DNA of 24,477 nt, taken from a virus. The stretch covers positions 1-24,477 of IMG/VR virus record IMGVR_UViG_3300024264_000168; one strand, written 5' to 3'. The notes under the pieces are model-generated. The model did not search any database, was not told where the DNA came from, and worked only from the letters and a program-made list of their open reading frames with translations. Positions 2,588-24,477 of the stretch are shown here, in pieces (position 1 is the stretch's first letter; every line of letters begins with the position of its first letter). The position numbers and the translations under genes were made by a program.

Positions 2588-4453
2588 ATGGCAACGAATT
2601 TAAATGTAACCGAACTTGATTTTGATCAAATCAAAAGTAATTTAAAAAACTATCTAAAGACTCAGACAGAGTTTAGTAGTCATGACTTCGAAGGTTCAGG
2701 TTTATCTTCGCTGCTTGATGTGTTAGCATACAATACGCATTATAATGCGATGGCTGCTCACTTTGCTTTGAATGAAGCATTCCTTGATTCGGCACAAATA
2801 CGTGGTAACATTGTATCACGTGCAAAGTTATTAGGTTACATACCCCGTTCAGTTTTAGCACCGAGAGCCATTGTCAATATTACAGTTGATGTCTCAGGAG
2901 AAAACTCGTCTAATATACCATCTACATTAACTCTTCCTCGAGGTGCTAAACTGACCACTAATGTTGATGGAAGAAATTACAGATATGTGGTACTAAACGA
3001 ACAAACTGCTTTACTATCACCTAGTTCAACATTTGTGTTTGATAATGTTACTATTGTCGAAGGTACAAGAAAGAAACTCTTATATAGAGTAGATAACGAT
3101 ATTGAAAATCAAAAGTTCCAGCTGTCAGACGACGATGCTGATACATCTACACTTAGAGTTCTTATTCAGGCAAATGAATTAAGTACTTCATACGATAACT
3201 ATACACAATTTGAATCTCTATTGAATGTTGATTCTTCTAGTCGTGTATATTATATACAAGAAAATTCAAATGAGTTTTATGAGATATACTTTGGTGATGG
3301 AGTAACTGGTAAGAAACCAATTAATAATAACATCGTAACTCTAGATTATATCTTTACAAATGCAGGCGATTCGAATGGTGCTAATGCATTTACGAAGGTA
3401 GATAATATTGGCGGTTATAGTAATATTAGTATTTCAACTTTATCAAAAGCTTCAGGCGGTGTTGAAAAAGAAACAAACGAATCGATTCGTTTTAATGCTC
3501 CACTTACTTTTACTTCTCAGAATAGAGCAGTAACATCAGATGATTATAGAGCCATCATTAAGAAAGAATTTACAAACATTAATTCCATTTCTACCTGGGG
3601 TGGTGAAGATAACGATCCACCAGATTATGGTGCTGTATATATTTCTATTAAGCCAATCGTAAATGAAATATTAACTGCGGCTGAAAAGAATGAAATCATG
3701 AATACTATTCTAAAAGGTAAGAGTGTTGTATCGATTACTCCAGTGATTGTAGATCCTAATTATACGTATTTGGAAATCGATTGCTTCTTTAAATATAATC
3801 CCAACCTAACAGACAGAAGTTCAGTAGAGTTGCAAGCTGTTGTAAGAGATACAATTTCAGATTATAACTTTAACGAACTAAATAAATTTGACGGTGTGTT
3901 TAGACATTCGCAATTATTAAAAGCAATTGATAATGCAGATCCCTCTATTCAAAACAGTAGTGTAAGACCATATATGTTTATGACTATTACACCAAACTTA
4001 AACGGCAGTCAATTAGATAATAACTTTTCTTTAAATTTTACTTCTCCATTTTACGATACTGGTTCTGCTGAGAAGCACGTTATCAGTTCAACTAAGTTTA
4101 AGTACAATAATGAAGAATTATATTTTGGTGATATACCAATTGACGGTTCTACTAATAGACAAGTGATTGCATATAAGACAGTAAATTCTCAAAATATTAC
4201 AGTGCTTAATGATTGCGGAATTGTTAATCCGTTAAAAGGAACAATCACATTAAATAAATTTACTCCTGATAGTGATTCGGATACAACTATTAGAATCACA
4301 GTTGTACCTAATTCTTTGGACCTAGCTCCTAAAAGAGATCAGTTAATTGCAATTGATCCATTAAGAGTTATTATTACTCCGAGCATAGATACAATATCAG
4401 TATCAGGTTCATCAGGAACAATTAATTATACAACGACCTCAAGGCTAAGATAA
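2588..4453 (+). CDS. 6: Baseplate wedge protein gp6 (baseplate J-like)
   Basis: gp6 forms the inner iris-like ring of the baseplate, as dimers holding gp25 and gp7. At 621 residues it is close to T4 gp6 (660). Residues 1-95 carry the typical entry helices: LDFDQIKSNLKNYLK, GSGLSSLLDVLAYNTHYNA, and the run leading to LLGYIPRSV. Residues about 228-265 hold FYEIYFGDGVTGKKP, and about 290-335 hold a GGVEKETNESIRFNAP stretch followed by NRAVTSDDYRAII, the hallmark of gp6/gpJ baseplate proteins. The C-terminal 150 residues are beta-rich. AAGG lies 9 bases before the ATG. Only one base separates its stop from the next start, so gp25, gp6 and gp7 are almost certainly co-translated from one message. 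Confidence 0.95.
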   Translation: MATNLNVTELDFDQIKSNLKNYLKTQTEFSSHDFEGSGLSSLLDVLAYNTHYNAMAAHFALNEAFLDSAQIRGNIVSRAKLLGYIPRSVLAPRAIVNITVDVSGENSSNIPSTLTLPRGAKLTTNVDGRNYRYVVLNEQTALLSPSSTFVFDNVTIVEGTRKKLLYRVDNDIENQKFQLSDDDADTSTLRVLIQANELSTSYDNYTQFESLLNVDSSSRVYYIQENSNEFYEIYFGDGVTGKKPINNNIVTLDYIFTNAGDSNGANAFTKVDNIGGYSNISISTLSKASGGVEKETNESIRFNAPLTFTSQNRAVTSDDYRAIIKKEFTNINSISTWGGEDNDPPDYGAVYISIKPIVNEILTAAEKNEIMNTILKGKSVVSITPVIVDPNYTYLEIDCFFKYNPNLTDRSSVELQAVVRDTISDYNFNELNKFDGVFRHSQLLKAIDNADPSIQNSSVRPYMFMTITPNLNGSQLDNNFSLNFTSPFYDTGSAEKHVISSTKFKYNNEELYFGDIPIDGSTNRQVIAYKTVNSQNITVLNDCGIVNPLKGTITLNKFTPDSDSDTTIRITVVPNSLDLAPKRDQLIAIDPLRVIITPSIDTISVSGSSGTINYTTTSRLR

Positions 4454-14006: not shown

Positions 14007-14234
14007 ATGGCTAAGAAGAAAAAAGTTGAAAATAATCCTGACCTTATTAGGGATATGGCCAATCAAGCTATTATAAATACTAATACAGATGCTTACCTCA
14101 TGAGGCGAGCTCAGATTAAAGCAACAGAACAAAAACGAAAACTTGATGAACAGCAAAGTCTTGATATAGATAACCTTAAAGATGACGTTGCTGAGATTAA
14201 GAAAATGTTACAGAAACTAATTGGTGGAAAATAA
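14007..14234 (+). CDS. Small lysine-rich coiled-coil protein, function unknown
   Basis: Seventy-five residues, not recognised. It opens with MAKKKKVENNPDL, and residues about 30-70 form a heptad-patterned helix (ATEQKRKLDEQQ, then LDIDNLKDDVAEIKKMLQKL) that should make a coiled coil. GGAG lies 10 bases before the ATG, and the stop overlaps the fibre start by one base (TAATG), so the two are probably translated together. Small coiled-coil proteins beside long fibre genes in T4-like phages often act in fibre assembly or attachment (T4 gp38, gp57A and wac are examples of the kind, not homologues I claim here). The real function is open. Composition is like its neighbours, and the reading frame is intact. 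Confidence 0.75.
   Translation: MAKKKKVENNPDLIRDMANQAIINTNTDAYLMRRAQIKATEQKRKLDEQQSLDIDNLKDDVAEIKKMLQKLIGGK
14072..14079 (+). promoter_or_regulatory. Possible T4-type late promoter for the giant fibre
   Basis: TATAAATACTAAT matches the extended T4 late consensus TATAAATACTATT at 12 of 13 bases. It lies inside the 75-residue gene, about 149 bases before the giant fibre ATG. About two or three chance TATAAATA matches are expected per strand in a window of this length and composition, so this one is uncertain. Confidence 0.35.
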
Positions 14235-17200
14235 TGGCTAACAAAGAAACTAGAATTTATAAATCAGATACACTAGAAACTCTTAGGCAAAAGTCTAACG
14301 AGATTTCACTGCATCTAGGTGATAACGAACAGCTTAATTCGTTAATGGCAGATAAGACTTACGTCTATAGTGCTGGAGCTGGTGATACATTATTTGCCGG
14401 TTCTGATACTTCAACCCCAGCTAAAACAGCTCGATTTGAAACAAGTCCTGTACATACCTTGGATAATACTGGAGGATATATTATCCTTGAAAGTGTTTCT
14501 TCTTTAGCAAGTAGTTATATTGCTGGAGCCATTATTTATCAAGGTACTTCTGGATCTGCTAGTTATTCAGCGACTATCGTTTCGGCTTCAACCGATAAAA
14601 TTTTAGTTAGAGATTCTTCTGGAAACTTTAGTACTTCTACTGATTTAAAAGTTGGTGCTGCTTCACCTGATACAATAGCTCATGCAAAAATAGCTAGAAT
14701 TGTAATTGAAGCAAATCCAGTTGGTATTGTAAGAGTGTACAAAAACGGAACAGAGCTAAGTCAAACTATGACAGCAAACGGTTTCCACGTAGCTGATATC
14801 AAAGCAACAATCACTCATACTGGATCTCCAACACTTACAAACTTTACAAGAGGAGTTACTGTTTATCAAGGTAGCTCAGAATCAACTCAAGCTGGCGTTG
14901 AAGCAAATGCTGATTGGTATGGTACTCTACACTCAGTTTCTGGTGGAGTTATTAGAGTAAAAACTTACAACGGAAACTTTATTACATCTGGTGCTGGTTC
15001 ATCTATAAGAGCTTTAGGTTCTAGTAATACAATTACTACACACGGAAGTCTTACTGCAATAGATAACACTTACGGATCTTACATCGAATTAACAACACCT
15101 GCTGCAGGATCTGATCAAATTAAAGTTTTCTCATTAGATGTTGTTGCTGCAATTAACGAATTACAAGATGACATTGGCACGGTTGAGAGTTTAACAACTG
15201 CTGCTAATGATTTAGTTTTAGCAATTAATGAACACGATGCTGAACTTGGAACAATTACTGCTGGAGCAATGGGTACAGCTGCTTCAACTGTAAGTACTGC
15301 TATCAGAGAACATGAAGATCAAATTGGTAATATCGATATTACTGACATTGCATCTGGCGAGGATACTATCACTGGTGCTCTTGAGCAATTACACGATGAA
15401 GTTGGAGATGTTACAGCTTCTAATATGGGAACATCAGCTTCGAACCTAACGGCAGCGGTAAGAGAACATGAAGATCAAATTGGTAATGATAATATCAACG
15501 CGATTTCTTCTACTAATAATACAATTAAAACTGCGCTAAATCAATTACATACTGAGATCGGTTCATCGTCTCTTGCAGATAATTTACCTAATGATTTTAC
15601 GTATAATGTAACTGATCATACTACTGCAACAAATACAATGTCTAGCTTTATTGGTGATACTTCTATTGCTAATATCGGAACAACAGATACTGTAACAGGT
15701 GCATTACAAAAATTACATGCTGAACTTGGTTCATCTGTAATCACAGATAATTTACCTGATGATATTACGTATACAGTAACAGATCATACGACCGCGATTA
15801 ACACAATGTCTGGTTTTATTGGTAGCACATCAATTAATAATATTGGTGCACCTGACACTCTTACTGGAGCATTGCAATCTTTACACGGTGAAATTGGTAC
15901 TATGGTATTTGGATCTTTAGGTCCTGTAGATGCTGCTAATTCGACAACACTAACCGGTGCGGTAAACGTCCTAGATGCTGAAATCGGAGATACTGATTTT
16001 AGTTTGGTAGGTTCTGATATTACTACAGCTCTTAAAAATACTTACGATGATATTTATGTGACAGGAAATGTAACAGGTCTCAACACAACCGCTACTCATT
16101 TGATTGGAGCAATCAACGAATTAGAACAAGATTTGTTTAATGCCGAAGGCGGAACTAAAAGAACTAGATCAAGTTTATTGACTTCAGATAAGACTTCTAT
16201 TGTAGATGCAATTAATGAATTACACACTGAGTTATATGTTTCTGGTGCTTCGTTCACTGGTCTCTCAGCTAATAATTTTAAATCTGGTATTAATGAACTA
16301 AGAGCAGAACTTGGTGATGTTAATGATATTAATGATGCTGCTGGTTATATAGCAACAACAGCTGTAACTGGTATCACGGAAATTCAAGGTGATATCGGAG
16401 ATGTTGATACATTAACTTTAGATGCTGGTACAATTGTCGGAGCTCTTAATGAAATTGAAGCTATCTTCGATGCATCGACAAGAGAAATTACTGCAGGCAC
16501 TGATCCTTTTACTATCACATCAAATACGTTTCTAGTAAATTCATCGGCCGATATTGTTTTAGATGCTGCCGGAAGTGATATTGTATTAAAGAAGGATTCC
16601 GTTGAATTTGGTAGGTTCTCGCATAGTGGTGGACAATTAAAACTTAAATCTGGAGCTAATCAGTTATTCTTAACAGCAAGTAATACAAACGCTACATTTA
16701 ATAATAACTTAACAGTAGAAAATAATTTAGAAGTAGATGGTACTGCTGGAGTTGATGGTAACTTTAGAGTTGGAGTATCAGGCGGTAGCCACTTTACCGT
16801 AGCTGCTTCTACTGGAAATACTTCTGTAGCTGGTACACTTGGAGTAACAGGAAATACTTCTGTCGGCGGTACGCTTGGAGTAACAGGAGCTACAGCTTTA
16901 TCTTCAACATTAAATGTTACTGGAGCTACTGAATTAGATTCAACACTAGGTGTTGATGGCAACTTAAGAGTTGGTGCTGATAAGTTTAATGTAACAGCAG
17001 CTTCTGGTAATACACAAATTGATGGAACTCTTGAAGTTGATGGCGCTACTGGAATTGATGGTAACTTTAGAGTTGGCGCTGGAGATGAAAGTAAGTTTAC
17101 TGTGACTGCTTCTAACGGTAATACTACAGTGTACGGAACACTTGGCGTAAGTCTACATACTTCGGTATCTACTCTTTCAGCTTCTGGTAATACAAGCGTT

Positions 17201-20200
17201 GGTGGTACATTAGGTGTTACTGGAGCTACAACTTTAGCTTCAACATTAAATGTTACTGGAGCTACTGAATTAGATTCAACACTAGGTGTTGATGGAAACT
17301 TTAGAGTTGGTGTTAATAAGTTTAATGTTACGGCTTCTAATGGTAATACACAAATCGATGGTACATTAGATGTTGATGGAAACTTTGAAGTAGGAGCAAC
17401 TAAGTTTAATGTTACTGCTTCTAATGGTAACTTTGTTGCTAAAGGAACTGGTAGAGTCGATGGTCATACAGATCTTAATTCAACAGTAACTATTGATGGT
17501 ATTACTACAATAACAAATACTACCCAATCAGCAGAAAACAGTGCAACAGACGGAGCATTAATTGTTGCGGGTGGTGCATCTATTGGTAAGAATTTGTATG
17601 TTGGTGGAAACTTACAAGTTGAAGGTACACAAACAGTTCTAAATACTGAGACATTAGAAGTTGAAGATACATTAGTATTGGCTGGTAATGATTTAAGTTC
17701 AGAACCATCAACGGGTGGTTTTGGTTTAGAAGTTGGTCCAATCACTAGTCCAAGTGGTGTTGCTAGTAACGTAACTGGTGCTCACAGTATTGTATACAAC
17801 TATGCAAATGATCGATGGGAAGCTGATGGATCTTTAATTCTTTCGACTGCTACACTTGCGACTCCTCAAATTGAAGGTGTTGATTTTGGTCCATCTGATA
17901 ACTTAACATTTAACGCAGGTGTCGGCCTTAGCGAAACTGTTGTTAAAACAGGTGCTACAATCGTTACTGAGTATGTTAATACTGATAGAGGTTCTGTTGC
18001 GGCAGCTGCTCTTAATATATTCTCTAGCGCAGTTCCTTCATCAGGTACAACTGCAACAGCTGATAATAATAATGATGCGTTAAATCTTACACAAGGTACT
18101 GGTATTTCTACAGTAGGTAGTGGTGATAATGTTATTACTATTAGTAATACTGATAGAGGTTCTGTTGCTGCTACAGCATTAAGAATGTTTAAAACTATTA
18201 CTCTTGCAGATACACCAGATTCAACAAATGCTAATGTTGTAGCTGATAGCAACGCCGATACTCTTAACTTAAGAGGTCTAGATGCAATCACATTAACATC
18301 TAATGCAACCACTGATACGATTAGTATTGATCATAATAACTTTGGTACTGCTGGAACTTATGGACAAACAAGTACGCAAGACGGTAAGTATGTTAAATCG
18401 ATTATTACTAATGATCAAGGTCACGTTACTGCAATAACAACTGGTGATTTTGATACAAGATACGAAGCATCAGATCCTACATGGGCATTATATAATAATG
18501 CAACTAAAATTGACGATGTTGCAAATGGAGACATTGTTAAGTTTATTGGCGGTAATGCAATTGATCTAGTAAGTTCGCATGCTTCTGGAACTTCTACTTT
18601 ACAGTTTAATCATGCTAATACATCAAGTGTAGCTAATCTATCTTCAGATAATTCAGGCGGTACTGTATTACAAGATATTTCATTAACATTCGATACATAC
18701 GGCCACGTAACAGCTAGATCAATTGGAACTGTCAATTTAGATAACAGATATATTAGATCATTCCAAGTTGAAGATGGGGATGGTACTGAAGTTACGATTA
18801 ATCAGGCAAATGAATGGAAATTTGTAGAAGCAGCTGGAGATGGCGCGTCAATTAATATTAACTGGTCTGATACATCAAATGGTACTGATGGCGATCCTTA
18901 CGATTTATCATTCTCTGTAACTAATACTGATAAAGGTTCTGTTGCTGTAGCACCGTTAAGAATATTTAAGAACGTTGCTTCAGATAGTGGAACAGCAGTT
19001 GCTGATAATACTGCAGATACACTTAGCATATTGGGTGGTACAAACATTAATACAGCGGTTGTTGGTGATGTTCTTACAATTAATAACGAATACACTTACA
19101 CTCACCCAACATATAACGGTGATGATTTCAGTATCGATACCGGACCACTTACCGGTGCAACTGTAATTTCCGATTTAGATATTAATGTTACAACTGATAC
19201 ATTAGGACATGTCGTTGATGCTAATGGTGTAGTAGCTACAAGAAACTTAACGCTTGGAGATTTAGGATTTTTAGGTTGGGACGTTGAAGTTAATGGAACT
19301 CATGTATTAGACGTAGGCAATAATACTGATGTAGACTTTAAGAACGGTGCTCATACAACTGCACAATGGACAGCTTCAGGTAATAGAATCCAATGGAATC
19401 ATAATACATTTACTTCAGGTGGAACATTCGTAGGTGGTGCTGATAACGGTATCGTAATTGAAGATTTCTATATTGATTCATATGGCCACATTAGAAGTGT
19501 TGGAACAAGAGATCTTGATAGCAGATACGATAAGTATAACGAATGGAGACTTCAAGATAACGGCGATGGTACCAATTATGGTCATGTAGATTCTACTGAA
19601 TATGTAAAATTTATTAACGGTACTAATACAACAACGGAGAGAGGTGGTACTGGTACTGTATCCGATCCGCATACAATCAAAGTTAACTTTGTAGATCCAG
19701 GCTACCTTCAATCTCAAAGATCTGCTACATTCGATGCAATACAAAACGGTGGCAGTAATAATAATCCATTCTTAAGAATGACTGATGCTGCTAACCATGA
19801 TGTGAAAATCGTTGGTGGTACTAATGTTACTGTTACAAGAGATAGCAATCATCAAATTACTATTGCAGCCAATGACACTGATGTTGATGTAACTGATGCC
19901 AACCTAAGAGCAAGACTTGCTGGATTAAATCCTGCTCAAGGTGTTGTATATATTGGAGATAGTGGTAACGATCTAGATCTTAGAATCAGAGGTAATCTAA
20001 GAGTTGAAGGTACTCAGACGATAATGAACACTGAGACAGTTACTACTCATGATAATAAGATTGAGCTTAACTCAAATGCTGCTTCTACTCCTACTGAAGA
20101 TGCTGGCCTAATCGTTAATAGAGGATCATCAACGAACGCACAAATTTACTGGAGTGAAGCAAATGATAGATGGTATCACACTTATGGTGATGGCGGTACT

Positions 20201-22618
20201 GCATATGTAATTCCGCTTCCATCAGAAAGTATGAGTGGGTTTACTATGCACGATGGTGATGGTACACAAAGAACAATCGCTGATAGTAAAGAAATAAAAT
20301 TCCAAGAAGGTACTACCTCTGCAGTTAGAAGTGGTGATGATTATATTCAAATTAATTGGACTGACACATCTACTGGTTCAGATACCGATCCTTATGATTT
20401 AACATTTGCCCATAAACTTACTACTCGTACTGATCCTACAGTTACTTCAACCACTCTTGCTCATTCCGGAAGTTTTTCTGCTGTTACCGGTGTAAGTACA
20501 AATGCTACAGGTCACCTTATTGCTGTTAATACTTCACAGTTTACTTTACCTGCAGGTGCTGTTCCAAATAATGGTTTACTAGATATTAATCCTGGCGCTT
20601 TAATCGACTTGACAATTACTGGTGGAGACTTTACTGCAGATAAATCTACTGAGACAGATATTACAATCAATGTCGATCTAACAGAGCTTACCGATATGGG
20701 TGATGCCACTGCAGTTGTTGGAACACTAGACTATATGCTAGTACTTGATGGTAATACAGCACAGCGCAAGAAGAAAATTAGCACAGTCACACTAAGTGAC
20801 TTTAATAATGACCTAGGTTGGACATCAAATACTGGTGATATTACACAAGTTAATATTACAGCAGGTAACGGTTTAACAGGAAGTACAAATACTACATCTG
20901 GTAATCACGTACAAACTATTCACGTTGGTGCTGGTGCTCTTATTGATGTTCGAGCTGATCATGTTGATGTCGATCTAAACGAACTTACCGATATGGGCGA
21001 TGCCACTGCAGTTGTTGGAACAGCAGATTATTTACCAATTCTTGATAGTGGTGTACAGAAGAAAAAGAAAATTAGTACAATTACACTAAGTGATTTTAAT
21101 AATGACCTTGGAAACTATGGTAATTGGACACAAAATATTGGTGATATTACAAGAGTTAATATTACAGCAGGAACTGGTTTAAGTGGAAGTGTAAATACTG
21201 CTTCAGGTGATCACGTACAAACACTAGCAGTTGACTTATCTGAATTAACTGATATGACTGCAGATGTTGTGGGAACACAAGATGAACTTATCTTGCTTGA
21301 TAGCGGTGCTGACAGAAGAAAACTTATTAGTGAAATTAAGTTAAGTCAATTTAATAATGACCCAGGGTTTAAAACCACTGATACTCACTTAACTGATGTA
21401 ACAGCTATCACTGACAATACAACTGATATTAAATTGGTTCACACAATGTCAAATGGCTCTGCACACGACATTGTTATAGAAGCTGGAGACGGTATTACAC
21501 TAACAGATAATGCTAATAATGATTACGCATTTGAAATCTCTGTTGATGAATCTGCTCTTGACTTTGATAATTATACATCTTGGACGTTCATGGAAGGTAA
21601 TGGTACTGAGACTGGAGTTATTACTTCAGAAGATACTTTACACTTCGAGCAAGGGACCGGAATGCAGGTTGAAAAGACTGCAGACGATCAATTAACGTTT
21701 ACAAATACCGCTCCTCACGTTGGTACTAATATAACTGTCACACAAACAGTCTCTGCTGGCGATCTGGTAGAAATTAATTCAAGTACTGGTAATAATGGAG
21801 TTATGTTGACTGCATCTTCGTTATATGCTGGAGTAATGAGTAAGGCTGATAAAGTAAAACTCGATGCTATTGATCCGAGTGCTGATGTTAACCAAAATTC
21901 ATATTTAACTATTAATGCATATAGAACAGCAACCTCTAATCTAATTAGTACTGGTAATCCTTATGGTCAAAGTACAACATGGGTTCCATCGGCTGCAACT
22001 TCTGTCAATGATAGTATATCATTTTTCTCTGGCCCTGGTATTGATATTAGAGGCGGTCATGTAAGTTCTACCGCAACTAATGAAATTCAATGGGACTTAG
22101 ATAGCGACCAAAGAAGCGTCATCAAGAAAATCGGTGTTATTGGCACTGGTAATATGTCAATTGATACCAGCGCAACTGCATATATTTATTTTGATAGTCA
22201 TAGTAGTCCTAGTAATACAACGGGAACACATAAAGTTAGATTTACTGGAGGTGGTCAAATTGATGCCGCTGGAGATATTGTTGCATATGCATCTCTTGGT
22301 AGTTCAGATAGAAAATTAAAAGAAAATATCCAAAAGGTTGAAGGTGCATTAGAATTAGTATCACAACTAGACGGAGTTACTTTTGATTGGAAAGATAAAG
22401 AAAGAGGTTCATCGGCTGGTGTAATTGCACAGAATGTAGAAGAAGTGTTACCTTCAGCTGTTAAAGATGTAGACACTTTAGGTGAAGAAGGTCAGACACA
22501 TAAAGCAGTAGATTATAATCAACTATCTGCTCTCTTTATTGAAGCAATTAAAGAATTGAAAGAAGAAAATAAATTACTTAGAGCTGAGATTGAAAGTTTA
22601 AAAGATATAAATAACTAA
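14234..22618 (+). CDS. Giant tail fibre with C-terminal S74 self-cleaving chaperone
   Basis: A 2794-residue host-contact fibre. Residues 5-32 (TRIYKSDTLETLRQKSNEIS, then LHLGDNEQ) look like the short N-terminal adaptor common in marine T4-like fibres. Residues 306-746 hold about 14 helical repeats of the AINELxxEIG kind (AINELQDDIG, AIREHEDQIG twice, ALNQLHTEIG, GINELRAELG and others). Residues about 825-1097 hold beta repeats of the LGVTGxTxLxSTLxVxG kind. Further modules follow: VEGTQT (1120- and 1920-), three TDRGSVA/TDKGSVA units, and three ELTDM units (2147-2379). The C-terminus is a peptidase S74 intramolecular chaperone: SDRKLKENIQ starts at Ser2691, with Lys2696 at +5 as in the endosialidase Ser-Lys dyad, then GVIAQNVEEVLP, and a coiled-coil end. 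Cleavage before Ser2691 would release 104 residues after trimer folding. The gene is continuous with no frameshift; GGTGGA precedes the ATG, and overlap with the upstream stop suggests coupling. Confidence 0.93.
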   Translation: MANKETRIYKSDTLETLRQKSNEISLHLGDNEQLNSLMADKTYVYSAGAGDTLFAGSDTSTPAKTARFETSPVHTLDNTGGYIILESVSSLASSYIAGAIIYQGTSGSASYSATIVSASTDKILVRDSSGNFSTSTDLKVGAASPDTIAHAKIARIVIEANPVGIVRVYKNGTELSQTMTANGFHVADIKATITHTGSPTLTNFTRGVTVYQGSSESTQAGVEANADWYGTLHSVSGGVIRVKTYNGNFITSGAGSSIRALGSSNTITTHGSLTAIDNTYGSYIELTTPAAGSDQIKVFSLDVVAAINELQDDIGTVESLTTAANDLVLAINEHDAELGTITAGAMGTAASTVSTAIREHEDQIGNIDITDIASGEDTITGALEQLHDEVGDVTASNMGTSASNLTAAVREHEDQIGNDNINAISSTNNTIKTALNQLHTEIGSSSLADNLPNDFTYNVTDHTTATNTMSSFIGDTSIANIGTTDTVTGALQKLHAELGSSVITDNLPDDITYTVTDHTTAINTMSGFIGSTSINNIGAPDTLTGALQSLHGEIGTMVFGSLGPVDAANSTTLTGAVNVLDAEIGDTDFSLVGSDITTALKNTYDDIYVTGNVTGLNTTATHLIGAINELEQDLFNAEGGTKRTRSSLLTSDKTSIVDAINELHTELYVSGASFTGLSANNFKSGINELRAELGDVNDINDAAGYIATTAVTGITEIQGDIGDVDTLTLDAGTIVGALNEIEAIFDASTREITAGTDPFTITSNTFLVNSSADIVLDAAGSDIVLKKDSVEFGRFSHSGGQLKLKSGANQLFLTASNTNATFNNNLTVENNLEVDGTAGVDGNFRVGVSGGSHFTVAASTGNTSVAGTLGVTGNTSVGGTLGVTGATALSSTLNVTGATELDSTLGVDGNLRVGADKFNVTAASGNTQIDGTLEVDGATGIDGNFRVGAGDESKFTVTASNGNTTVYGTLGVSLHTSVSTLSASGNTSVGGTLGVTGATTLASTLNVTGATELDSTLGVDGNFRVGVNKFNVTASNGNTQIDGTLDVDGNFEVGATKFNVTASNGNFVAKGTGRVDGHTDLNSTVTIDGITTITNTTQSAENSATDGALIVAGGASIGKNLYVGGNLQVEGTQTVLNTETLEVEDTLVLAGNDLSSEPSTGGFGLEVGPITSPSGVASNVTGAHSIVYNYANDRWEADGSLILSTATLATPQIEGVDFGPSDNLTFNAGVGLSETVVKTGATIVTEYVNTDRGSVAAAALNIFSSAVPSSGTTATADNNNDALNLTQGTGISTVGSGDNVITISNTDRGSVAATALRMFKTITLADTPDSTNANVVADSNADTLNLRGLDAITLTSNATTDTISIDHNNFGTAGTYGQTSTQDGKYVKSIITNDQGHVTAITTGDFDTRYEASDPTWALYNNATKIDDVANGDIVKFIGGNAIDLVSSHASGTSTLQFNHANTSSVANLSSDNSGGTVLQDISLTFDTYGHVTARSIGTVNLDNRYIRSFQVEDGDGTEVTINQANEWKFVEAAGDGASININWSDTSNGTDGDPYDLSFSVTNTDKGSVAVAPLRIFKNVASDSGTAVADNTADTLSILGGTNINTAVVGDVLTINNEYTYTHPTYNGDDFSIDTGPLTGATVISDLDINVTTDTLGHVVDANGVVATRNLTLGDLGFLGWDVEVNGTHVLDVGNNTDVDFKNGAHTTAQWTASGNRIQWNHNTFTSGGTFVGGADNGIVIEDFYIDSYGHIRSVGTRDLDSRYDKYNEWRLQDNGDGTNYGHVDSTEYVKFINGTNTTTERGGTGTVSDPHTIKVNFVDPGYLQSQRSATFDAIQNGGSNNNPFLRMTDAANHDVKIVGGTNVTVTRDSNHQITIAANDTDVDVTDANLRARLAGLNPAQGVVYIGDSGNDLDLRIRGNLRVEGTQTIMNTETVTTHDNKIELNSNAASTPTEDAGLIVNRGSSTNAQIYWSEANDRWYHTYGDGGTAYVIPLPSESMSGFTMHDGDGTQRTIADSKEIKFQEGTTSAVRSGDDYIQINWTDTSTGSDTDPYDLTFAHKLTTRTDPTVTSTTLAHSGSFSAVTGVSTNATGHLIAVNTSQFTLPAGAVPNNGLLDINPGALIDLTITGGDFTADKSTETDITINVDLTELTDMGDATAVVGTLDYMLVLDGNTAQRKKKISTVTLSDFNNDLGWTSNTGDITQVNITAGNGLTGSTNTTSGNHVQTIHVGAGALIDVRADHVDVDLNELTDMGDATAVVGTADYLPILDSGVQKKKKISTITLSDFNNDLGNYGNWTQNIGDITRVNITAGTGLSGSVNTASGDHVQTLAVDLSELTDMTADVVGTQDELILLDSGADRRKLISEIKLSQFNNDPGFKTTDTHLTDVTAITDNTTDIKLVHTMSNGSAHDIVIEAGDGITLTDNANNDYAFEISVDESALDFDNYTSWTFMEGNGTETGVITSEDTLHFEQGTGMQVEKTADDQLTFTNTAPHVGTNITVTQTVSAGDLVEINSSTGNNGVMLTASSLYAGVMSKADKVKLDAIDPSADVNQNSYLTINAYRTATSNLISTGNPYGQSTTWVPSAATSVNDSISFFSGPGIDIRGGHVSSTATNEIQWDLDSDQRSVIKKIGVIGTGNMSIDTSATAYIYFDSHSSPSNTTGTHKVRFTGGGQIDAAGDIVAYASLGSSDRKLKENIQKVEGALELVSQLDGVTFDWKDKERGSSAGVIAQNVEEVLPSAVKDVDTLGEEGQTHKAVDYNQLSALFIEAIKELKEENKLLRAEIESLKDINN
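15149..16474 (+). repeat. About 14 helical AINEL-type repeats in giant fibre
   Basis: Each unit has A/G-[ILV]-x-x-[LH]-x-x-[EDQ]-[ILV]-[GY] and units are mostly 20-45 residues apart. They probably make short coiled-coil breaks in a trimeric shaft. Two units share an exact 27-base DNA repeat (15305-15331 and 15461-15487) reading REHEDQIGN in protein. Unit count depends on how strictly the motif is read. Confidence 0.8.
16902..16959 (+). repeat. 58-base perfect direct repeat, copy 1
   Basis: Identical base for base to 17238-17295, 336 bases away centre to centre, with mismatches on each side (T/G before, C/A after). Both copies lie in frame in the giant fibre and encode the same S-T-L-N-V-T-G-A-T-E-L-D-S-T-L-G-V-D-G stretch. 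The lack of synonymous differences suggests a recent duplication or ongoing gene conversion. Confidence 0.9.
17238..17295 (+). repeat. 58-base perfect direct repeat, copy 2
   Basis: Second copy of the repeat at 16902-16959. Recombination between the copies would delete or duplicate exactly 336 bases (112 codons) and keep the reading frame, changing the fibre length. Confidence 0.9.
17591..17842 (+). repeat. VEGTQT fibre module, copy 1
   Basis: Residues about 1120-1203 of the giant fibre: NLQVEGTQTVLNTETLEVED, then VLAGNDLSSEP and, after a loop, NDRWEADG. The same module recurs at 19991-20199 (NLRVEGTQTIMNTETV..., SEANDRWYHTYGDGG) and, more distantly, in the next fibre gene at 24109-24348 ([20 protein letters not shown]). 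Confidence 0.8.
19991..20199 (+). repeat. VEGTQT fibre module, copy 2
   Basis: Residues about 1920-1989 of the giant fibre. It carries GNLRVEGTQTIMNTETV, then NKIELNSNAAS, AGLIVNRG and ANDRWYHTYGDG. It ends like copy 1 with an N-D-R-W turn, a likely bulge on the fibre shaft. Confidence 0.8.
20672..21370 (+). repeat. Three ELTDM tandem modules in giant fibre
   Basis: Units begin at residues 2147 (VDLTELTDMGDATAVVG), 2246 (VDLNELTDMGDATAVVG) and 2333 (VDLSELTDM). Each runs through a K-x-I-S-x-[IV]-x-L-S-x-F-N-N-D segment. Units 1 and 2 share a 39-base DNA match with one difference (20687-20725 and 20984-21022). This unit is similar in outline to the [15 protein letters not shown] stretch of the 81-residue gene at 22976. 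Confidence 0.8.
22304..22615 (+). other. Peptidase S74 chaperone domain, predicted self-cleavage at Ser2691
   Basis: Residues 2691-2794 of the giant fibre. The first residues are Ser-Asp-Arg-Lys-Leu-Lys-Glu-Asn-Ile. In endosialidases the cleavage is just before the Ser and the Lys five residues on is the catalytic partner, so Ser2691 and Lys2696 fit. A GVIAQNVEEVLP segment and a terminal heptad helix (FIEAIKELKEENKLLRAEIE) complete the family pattern. Function is inferred from the family. Confidence 0.85.
22606..22613 (+). promoter_or_regulatory. T4-type late promoter, 113-residue gene
   Basis: An exact TATAAATA inside the last codons of the giant fibre. Expected transcription start is near 22619, about 16 bases before the ATG at 22635, which leaves room for the TGGA ribosome binding site. 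The following bases (ACTAA) differ from the T4 extended consensus. Confidence 0.5.
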
Positions 22619-22634
22619 AGGAAATGGAATAATA

Positions 22635-22976
22635 ATGGCAATATATTCTAATTTAACGGTCGACCAAGGTACTACCTTCGGTGCCGAGATAGACGTTACA
22701 GATTCTAGTGGTGATCCATTAGATCTTGCTGGATATACTGTCGCAGGACAGTTAAGAAAAACTTATAGTTCTACAACATTTACACCCTTTGTTGCGTCTG
22801 TATATAGCGCCGTTGGAGGAGTAGTAAAAATAGAATTAAGCGCAGTAACTACAAATCTACTAAAAGCTGGTAGATATGTGTATGACGTAGAAATAACAAA
22901 AACTGTTACTTCAGAAGTTACAAGAATTATTGAAGGGCAAATAGAAGTTAGACCAGGAGTTACAAGGGTAAGCTAA
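22635..22976 (+). CDS. Small fibre-associated beta protein, unknown function
   Basis: A 113-residue all-beta protein. It reads IYSNLTVDQGTTFGAEIDVT, then LAGYTVAGQLRKTYSSTTFT, then LLKAGRYVYDVEITK and IIEGQIEVRPGVTRV. The order 'D-L-A-G-Y, Q-L-R-K, G-R-Y-V-Y-D-V-E-I, E-G-x-x-x-V-R-P-G-V-T' is one I associate with small proteins next to fibre genes in marine T4-like phages and, in outline, with the N-terminal domain of BppU-type baseplate proteins. No catalytic motif is visible. TGGA lies 6 bases before the ATG. Its stop overlaps the next start by one base (TAATG). A fibre-base connector or an assembly partner is plausible, but this is inference. Confidence 0.75.
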   Translation: MAIYSNLTVDQGTTFGAEIDVTDSSGDPLDLAGYTVAGQLRKTYSSTTFTPFVASVYSAVGGVVKIELSAVTTNLLKAGRYVYDVEITKTVTSEVTRIIEGQIEVRPGVTRVS

Positions 22977-23221
22977 TGAGCATAAAAGCTAAAGTAAGAA
23001 CCACTGGTAGATTGAAAGGTAATGCTAATCTACAACAAGAAATAGTTGCTACTACTATGAAAATTCAAGCTGGAGAATTAAGGCTTGGCGATTTGGCAGA
23101 CGTTAATGCCTCTGGACAAAGCGATGGCGTCATGATGATATATGATGCAACAGCTGGAGAATATAAAGTTACAACTCAGATTGAAAATGAGAATCTGAAT
23201 ATAATAGGAGGCACATACTAG
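22976..23221 (+). CDS. Small fibre-associated protein, unknown function
   Basis: Eighty-one residues, starting [20 protein letters not shown]. The middle carries [20 protein letters not shown], then DATAGEYK. This 'D-L-A-D-V-x-x-x-G-x-x-D-G-x-x-x-x-Y-D-A' turn is common in phage fibre proteins and is similar to the ELTDM units of the giant fibre, so the protein may be a free-standing fibre module. AAGGG lies 7 bases before the ATG, within the upstream gene. Its TAG stop overlaps the next GTG start by one base. No signal peptide, membrane segment or enzyme motif is seen. Confidence 0.7.
23206..23211 (+). promoter_or_regulatory. Ribosome binding site that fixes a GTG start
   Basis: A full AGGAGG, 9 bases before the GTG at 23221. 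It is the strongest Shine-Dalgarno match in the window and lies at the end of the 81-residue gene. With the overlap TAGTG it makes the GTG the only sensible start for the next gene. Confidence 0.85.
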
Positions 23222-24477
23222 TGGCTAATTTAACAAGGATAAAGATATTAACTACGGGCGCCACCACCAGTGCACCTAGTAATATTAAAACAGGTGAACT
23301 TGCTTACTCATATGTGGCTGGTACTCAGGGAAATAATGGTGATAGACTATATATCGGAACAGGTGCAGAATCTGGTGGAGTTGCATCTAGTGTAGACTTA
23401 ATCGGCGGTAAGTACTTTACTGGATTATTAGACCATGTACACGGAACTCTCACTGCATCAAGTGCGATTATTACAGATTCAAATAATAAGATTAATCAAT
23501 TAAATGTAGATAATCTAAGATTAGATGCTAATACTCTAACATCAACCAATACTAACGGCGATGTTATTATTGACCCTAATGGAACAGGTAAGACTGTTCT
23601 TCATAACGTATATATTGACGGAACATCAGATTCATTAGCAGAATTCATCTATGATACAGTGGGTGGTGCTGTAACCGGTGGAACTGGTATTACAGTAACA
23701 AATAGTGATGGGGCAGATACCTCAACAGTTTCTATTACTAACACTAGTGTTACAGCTGGTTCATATGGTTCTGCAACTCAGATTCCAACCTTTACAGTTA
23801 ATGCTCAAGGCCAATTAACAGCAGCAGGTGTCGCAAACGTTGCTACAGCTCTTACTGTTGATGGCGATACTGGTACAGGCGATGTTGATCTTTTAACTGA
23901 CGATCTAAGAATTGTTGGTACTGCAAATGAGATTGTTACAGTTTCTTCTAAATCTGGAACCGATGTTACAGTTACACTAAGCTTACCCGATGATGTTACT
24001 ATTGGAGATGCATTAACAGTAACTGGTGCAGCTTCAGTAGGTGGTAACTTCTCAGTAGATGGTAACGTTACTCTTGGTAATGCTACTTCAGATACAGTAA
24101 ATACTTCTGGTAACCTAACAGTTGGCGGCGATCTTACTGTTAATGGTACTACAACTTCTGTAAATTCAACAGTTATTTCTCTTGATGATCCAGTTCTTGT
24201 ACTTGCTGATAACAGTGGTACTACAGTAGATGGTATCGATAGAGGTATTAGATTTAAGTATGGTGATGGAACTGCTACTAAAGAAGGATTCTTTGGTTTT
24301 GACCATCAAACAGAAAGATTTGTATTTACTAAAGATGAAGACTTTAGTGGCGGGGAAGATGCTTCTTCACCATGGCATGATGCACAATTCGGTGGCGTAT
24401 ATGCTGGAGATTTAGATTTAGGTATAGGTGCTAATAATAAGATTACTACAACAGCTGGTAATTTAGTATTAGATTCT
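23221..24477 (+). CDS. Second tail fibre protein, N-terminal part, GTG start, cut by window end
   Basis: The frame from GTG is open for 419 codons to the end of the window and contains no in-frame ATG, so ATG-only searches miss it. It begins [20 protein letters not shown], then [25 protein letters not shown] and [16 protein letters not shown], then [19 protein letters not shown]. This is the proximal segment of a kind of fibre seen in marine T4-like phages, and it differs from the N-terminus of the giant fibre, so the two probably attach at different sites. Residues about 297-376 carry the VNGTTT module related to VEGTQT in the giant fibre, and residues about 265-300 carry [18 protein letters not shown]-type units. 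The end of the gene and any receptor-binding tip are outside the window. Confidence 0.9.
24109..24348 (+). repeat. VNGTTT fibre module shared with giant fibre
   Basis: Residues about 297-376 of the second fibre: [20 protein letters not shown], then [19 protein letters not shown], then HQTERFVFT. It matches the outline of the two VEGTQT copies (shaft strand, D-x-x-[VI]-x-L, then a loop ending in an R-W or R-F turn). Confidence 0.65.

Follow-up and report, generated by a model that had tools for sequence, protein, structure and literature searches.

The last gene of this contig raises the question why a fibre-type reading frame begins with GTG, and whether that codon is itself a means of regulation. 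The window, that is the whole stretch of DNA analysed here, is a complete viral contig record of 24,477 bases, the end of which cuts off the gene in question. We assign it to a T4-like marine myovirus, because its baseplate protein (2588-4453) resembles over its full length, at 39-41% identity, the homologues of the Pelagibacter phages Mosig and HTVC008M and of the Methylophilales phage Melnitz. Phage records searched by nucleotide megablast with the end of the window gave no match. According to the available text of PMC7029224, tail fibres of pelagimyophages sit in a 'host recognition cluster'. The features that matter for the question are:

14234..22618, + strand: first fibre, 2794 aa, with a C-terminal Peptidase_S74 (chaperone of endosialidase) domain
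22606..22613, + strand: TATAAATA, possible T4-type late promoter core 21 nt upstream of the three-gene cassette (count of such cores not above chance)
22635..22976, + strand: 113-aa protein, phrog_1084 and also phrog_3304, 'L-shaped tail fiber protein assembly'
22974-22978, + strand: TAATG overlap from the 113-aa gene to the 81-aa gene
22976..23221, + strand: gene of the 81-aa small protein, upstream partner of the fibre, phrog_13853
23206..23211, + strand: AGGAGG Shine-Dalgarno (SD) inside the GGA GGC codons of the 81-aa gene
23207..23218, + strand: C-terminal GGTY codons of the 81-aa protein, from the sequence and a codon control
23219..23223, + strand: TAGTG one-base stop/start overlap, the TAG of the 81-aa gene sharing its G with GTG
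23221..24477, + strand: fibre-type coding sequence, GTG start, 419 codons to the contig end, 'TRIKIL...TGELAYS' N-terminus, phrog_15769

The frame that starts at GTG 23221-23223 stays open for 419 codons up to the contig end; GTG occurs in frame only at codons 1, 32 and 147, and in-frame ATG and TTG are absent. A sequence-only reading of this DNA had described the start and the lack of ATG in the same way. It had also stated that ATG-only gene finding misses the gene, which is indeed absent from the ATG-only ORF list; since GTG is an accepted start in standard prokaryotic gene callers, this omission carries little weight. The best ribosome binding site, likewise claimed for this gene, is found there: the + strand has a single AGGAGG, which begins at 23206 and lies 9 nt ahead of the GTG, and the anti-SD duplex energy of the 20 nt upstream (-10.2 kcal/mol) is the strongest of the 12 genes scored (next best -9.3), a value matched by 0.3% of 3000 random 20-mers from the window. 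The frame is coding, because synonymous codon differences exceed nonsynonymous ones against both the related locus L005 (127 and 81 over 419 codons; 76/39/158 differences by codon position) and L006 (53 and 11 over 293; 13/5/54). The N-terminus matches phrog_15769 (E 1.1e-46, best stretch residues 6-128), as do 13 of 13 members of the group A1, and in line with the fibre N-terminus proposed from the sequence it recurs in genes annotated as tail fibres in Melnitz and Mosig. A stop soon after the window end, which had been named as speaking against the gene, was not seen: in L005 (80% identical, GTG start, no internal Met) the fibre has 499 residues and stops only at codon 500, and 44 complete relatives encode 478-647 residues.

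Selection against methionine in the fibre was considered and rejected, as the internal Met rate of these 44 relatives is 0.37%, which gives a probability of about 0.21 for none in 418 codons, and seven of them have no internal Met either. The lack of an in-frame ATG is hence nothing unusual; what exceeds chance is the strength of the SD, the reading frame and the conservation. AlphaFold2 models of the L005 fibre (pLDDT 52.5, pTM 0.24) and of the 81-aa protein (pLDDT 55.1) were too poor for a fold search, and the family profile had no match among PDB sequences at E 0.1.

The comparison of start codons is based on four scans of viral contigs, three of them comprising the best 80 loci each, among the matches listed. 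They yielded 52 junctions of the TRIKIL/TGELAYS family, no two of them identical over the 200 nt compared (as proteins, 51 rows are distinct); if ATG and GTG both occurred within seven codons of the motif, ATG was taken as the start, which can only undercount GTG. Among the matches listed, 18 of 52 junctions, window included, have a GTG start, and all 18 are TAGTG; the remaining 34 have ATG, five as TAATG and 29 with a gap of 0 to +3 nt. In the same listed matches the spacing between small gene and fibre is -1 to +3 nt in 52 of 52 and exactly -1 in 23, and the SD is strong at 41 and weak at 11, which are still tight. GTG is found at 18 of the 41 strong-SD and at 0 of the 11 weak-SD junctions (Fisher 0.0095, uncorrected for kinship). 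A tree of the partner and the fibre N-terminus requires at least six ATG/GTG changes, two of which are forced by well supported branches; in the second-smallest well supported group holding the window all six rows, window included, have GTG. The start codon tracks the purine that it shares with the upstream stop: G gives TAG plus GTG, A gives TAA plus ATG. The one-base stop overlap described earlier, in which the TAG of ORF 22976-23221 and the GTG share a G, is thus also the reason for GTG at 23221, where the first base of the start doubles as the last base of the stop. In L010, the small-protein gene just upstream of 8001 appears to be GTG-started as well.

The SD is supplied by the choice of GGA GGC for the two glycines of a conserved GGTY, as a codon control on this tetrapeptide demonstrates. 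Among the matches listed, GGTY terminates the small protein at 36 of 52 junctions and the fibre in 40 of 44 complete members. GGA encodes the first glycine in all 36 of these small proteins, but in 0 of these 40 fibres. When any terminal Gly-Gly is counted, GGAGG is present in 40 of 41 small-protein ends versus 0 of 42 fibre ends (Fisher 5e-23, which overstates independence because the rows are related, the GGA contrast being complete nonetheless), and within fibre bodies 19 of 442 Gly-Gly pairs read GGAGG. The 11 junctions whose small protein has no Gly-Gly (NSGTY, AGLF and similar) all have a weak SD and ATG. One tetrapeptide therefore documents an SD selected within the C-terminal codons of a protein.

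An end of the form [GC]G[TSED][YF] is common to the TGELAYS-class fibres and the 81-aa protein (window 23207-23218). It is found in 110 of 111 complete TGELAYS members, seven with an extra A (91 by the strict pattern and 19 of 20 exceptions by reading the endings), and in 1 of 69 of the GELAxN class; the C-terminus of the window fibre is cut off, and that of L005 ends IDGGTY. The shared end is perhaps a docking or assembly tag. With hhalign, no further homology was detectable between the GGTY ends of small protein and fibre (probability 2.6, six columns aligned).

Gene pairs that overlap by one base, TAGTG included, are an established arrangement according to the available text of Huber et al. 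2023 (PMC10666635) and of a review (PMC12548453); the former lists TAGTG among -1 nt overlaps and reports short-distance gene pairs as enriched among subunits of heteromeric complexes. Like the TAATG, TGATG and TAGTG pairs with termination-reinitiation coupling treated in that text, our junction combines TAGTG, an SD in the upstream coding end and neighbouring structural genes; unlike those cellular pairs, it belongs to a phage fibre cassette, whose coupling is predicted from the sequence. Prochlorococcus phage P-HM2 has the same three-gene order (PHM2_090-092; T4-GC 211, 508, 509) and a one-base small/fibre overlap, there TAATG, and its small protein ends in GGSF; unlike in the window, its fibre (561 aa, 49.6% identity over 27% of the query) is ATG-started. 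The gene order is also that of Pelagibacter phage Mosig (00068-00070) and Methylophilales phage Melnitz-3 (184-186), whose fibres, annotated as tail fibres, are 55.8% and 48.7% identical over the matched N-terminal part. In contrast to the window, both start with ATG and their genes lie 9 and 26 nt apart without overlap, so that tight spacing is not universal outside the counted family. A literature search on GTG/TTG starts, TAGTG overlaps and phage tail fibers did not find the cassette at the level of titles and abstract openings, and the accessible part of the Melnitz paper treats riboswitches and T4-like late promoters and does not contain the term 'start codon' (PMC9004378).

Very probably, then, positions 22635-24477 hold a three-gene cassette chained by one-base overlaps, in which the shared base sets GTG, GGA GGC provides the SD and co-production of small protein and fibre is probable. 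The cassette of this T4-like marine myovirus would encode a 113-aa protein, an 81-aa protein and a fibre of about 500 aa, with a TAATG overlap followed by TAGTG. The comparisons above establish coding, start position, overlap, selection of the SD and a spacing kept within the family. From this architecture and the literature, we infer that ribosomes leaving the 81-aa gene may reinitiate at GTG 23221, or that AGGAGG may recruit new ones; small protein and fibre would probably be co-produced, and the small protein may assemble with the fibre. This is an ordinary one-base-overlap coupling architecture: the arrangement is already known, and what is unusually clear is an SD placed in the end of the neighbouring gene.

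Three other explanations have to be weighed against this cassette. That the GTG was misread or wrongly chosen, with the real start elsewhere, is hardly credible. GTG is a minority codon in relatives, not only in the 18 of 52 junctions but also in an earlier set of 79 rows made up of the window, three isolates and 75 of the best 80 loci (the other five stop short of residue 1); 62 of these rows are distinct, and five of the distinct ones, window included, have a GTG start. However, the closest in-frame stop lies 11 codons 5' of the GTG, no ATG, GTG or TTG occurs between that stop and codon 1 or from there to codon 32, residue 5 is the first of the TRIK motif, orthologues carry ATG at the equivalent place, and a GTG start is also seen in L005, L006 and other contigs. 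The start position is thereby settled for a class of fibre genes. The sequence-only reading had further suggested that GTG tunes the ratio of fibre to small protein, which would imply that it was selected as a weaker start. Its use in all six rows of the window's group and its pairing with a strong SD in 18 of 18 cases fit this idea, but we regard it as improbable: ATG replaces GTG freely across the family (34 against 18 of 52), with at least six switches on the tree, and GTG is confined to the TAG overlap (18 of 18) and found at 0 of the 29 junctions that lack an overlap. Conservation concerns the spacing and, in most cases, the SD, and the suggestion of tuning could not be upheld; the scattered GTG starts of the family are by-products of base sharing between stop and start.

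Independent initiation of the fibre at AGGAGG, with the overlap as mere genome compaction, is a more serious competitor, although we still consider it unlikely. A duplex of -10.2 kcal/mol at 9 nt from the start would suit it, since so strong an SD might let the fibre be initiated on its own and render coupling superfluous, and so would the separated genes of Mosig and Melnitz. Against it stands the spacing of -1 to +3 nt in 52 of 52 family junctions, those with a weak SD included. As these 11 relatives keep a tight junction, a strong SD is not essential, which also counts against our own reading. On balance we favour the coupled cassette.

Beyond the window, the next gene downstream is another fibre with an xLRRS...GELAxN N-terminus. 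It starts with TTG in 43 of the 43 readable loci among the 44 with a complete TGELAYS fibre (41 distinct leaders); the sequence of the 44th, L120, is too short to read this start. No in-frame ATG, GTG or TTG occurs between the preceding stop and the TTG. Most loci have ATT, ATA or ATC six codons inside, where a non-standard start in place of TTG would be conceivable. The TTG start stands behind AGGAG, and CCAAAATTGGC spans it in 34 of the 43 leaders. In the nearest complete relative the leader lies at L005:9583-9619. When phage records were searched by blastn with the TTG leader of L098, the matches were weak, with a lowest E of 0.01 among the 30 of 89 records listed.

These leaders share a hairpin, NNN-TANATA-NNN with three paired flanking bases, in 43 of 43 cases. 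Its forms are CTCTATATAGAG (26), CCCTATATAGGG (8), CCTTATATAAGG (4), TCTTATATAAGA (3) and two others once each, and more distant loci have other stems, CGGT/ACCG in L304 and CAGT/ACTG in L313 and L377. Examples upstream of GELAxN fibre starts are:

L005:9583-9594
L010:9557-9568
L304
L414 (P-SSM2)

TANATA lies within 80 nt upstream in 134 of 143 distinct GELAxN-class starts, 81 of them with four flanking pairs; elsewhere in those loci four pairs flank 169 of 4140 TANATA sites. In the TGELAYS class, TANATA precedes 6 of 46 starts, and four pairs are found at 0 of 46. The stem covaries across the GELAxN fibre class, because in 67 distinct 14-mers the three inner positions are paired in 58, 58 and 48 cases, above all 2000 shuffles (means 26.6, 25.3 and 28.2); the fourth position is weaker (33 of 67; shuffle mean 24.9, reached by 40 of 2000 shuffles). 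Such a hairpin also precedes 32 of 1864 other ATG ORFs, many of which belong to the GELAxN fibre class by their N-termini. Some loci were fetched by a TTG-leader pattern, which biases the TTG counts of the 143-start and 1864-ORF sets and leaves the 43 of 43 unaffected. Among the 40 records listed, annotated isolates of the GELAxN class have ATG in 10 of 10 annotated starts and the hairpin in five of 10; TTG therefore characterises a clade, and the hairpin does not occur throughout the class. Rfam gave no match at gathering scores for the window and five loci, and a literature search at the level of titles and abstracts found no description of such a hairpin.

The two fibre starts suggest a broader idea, which we would put somewhat short of even: start-site design, and not only promoters, may set fibre dosage, with a coupled second fibre beside an independent UUG/hairpin next fibre. 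The second fibre would be slaved to its small partner by an overlap with the SD in codons that tolerates GTG or ATG, and the next fibre would be an independent unit, with the NNN-UANAUA-NNN hairpin followed by AGGAG and, in this clade, mostly by CCAAAAUUG with a fixed UUG. The hairpin may act at the RNA level (in translation, in stability or as a repressor operator) or as a palindrome in the DNA. If the idea is true, aquatic T4-like phages would have in this hairpin a cis element of their fibre genes that is so far undescribed, and the hairpin/UUG leader is a candidate for post-transcriptional control of phage adhesins. This leader of the adjacent fibre is a more novel lead than the GTG start.

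As to promoters, the window has five TATAAATA late promoter cores against 4.23 expected. The available text of PMC7029224 states that older middle/late promoter methods performed poorly on pelagimyophages, which weakens a late-promoter reading of the core at 22606. The core at 2119 was ruled out as promoter of gene 2132, as it sits between the SD and the start of that gene. The + strand sites are 2119, 7310, 8763, 14072 and 22606, and at four of the five the first base lies 13-55 nt ahead of a gene start.
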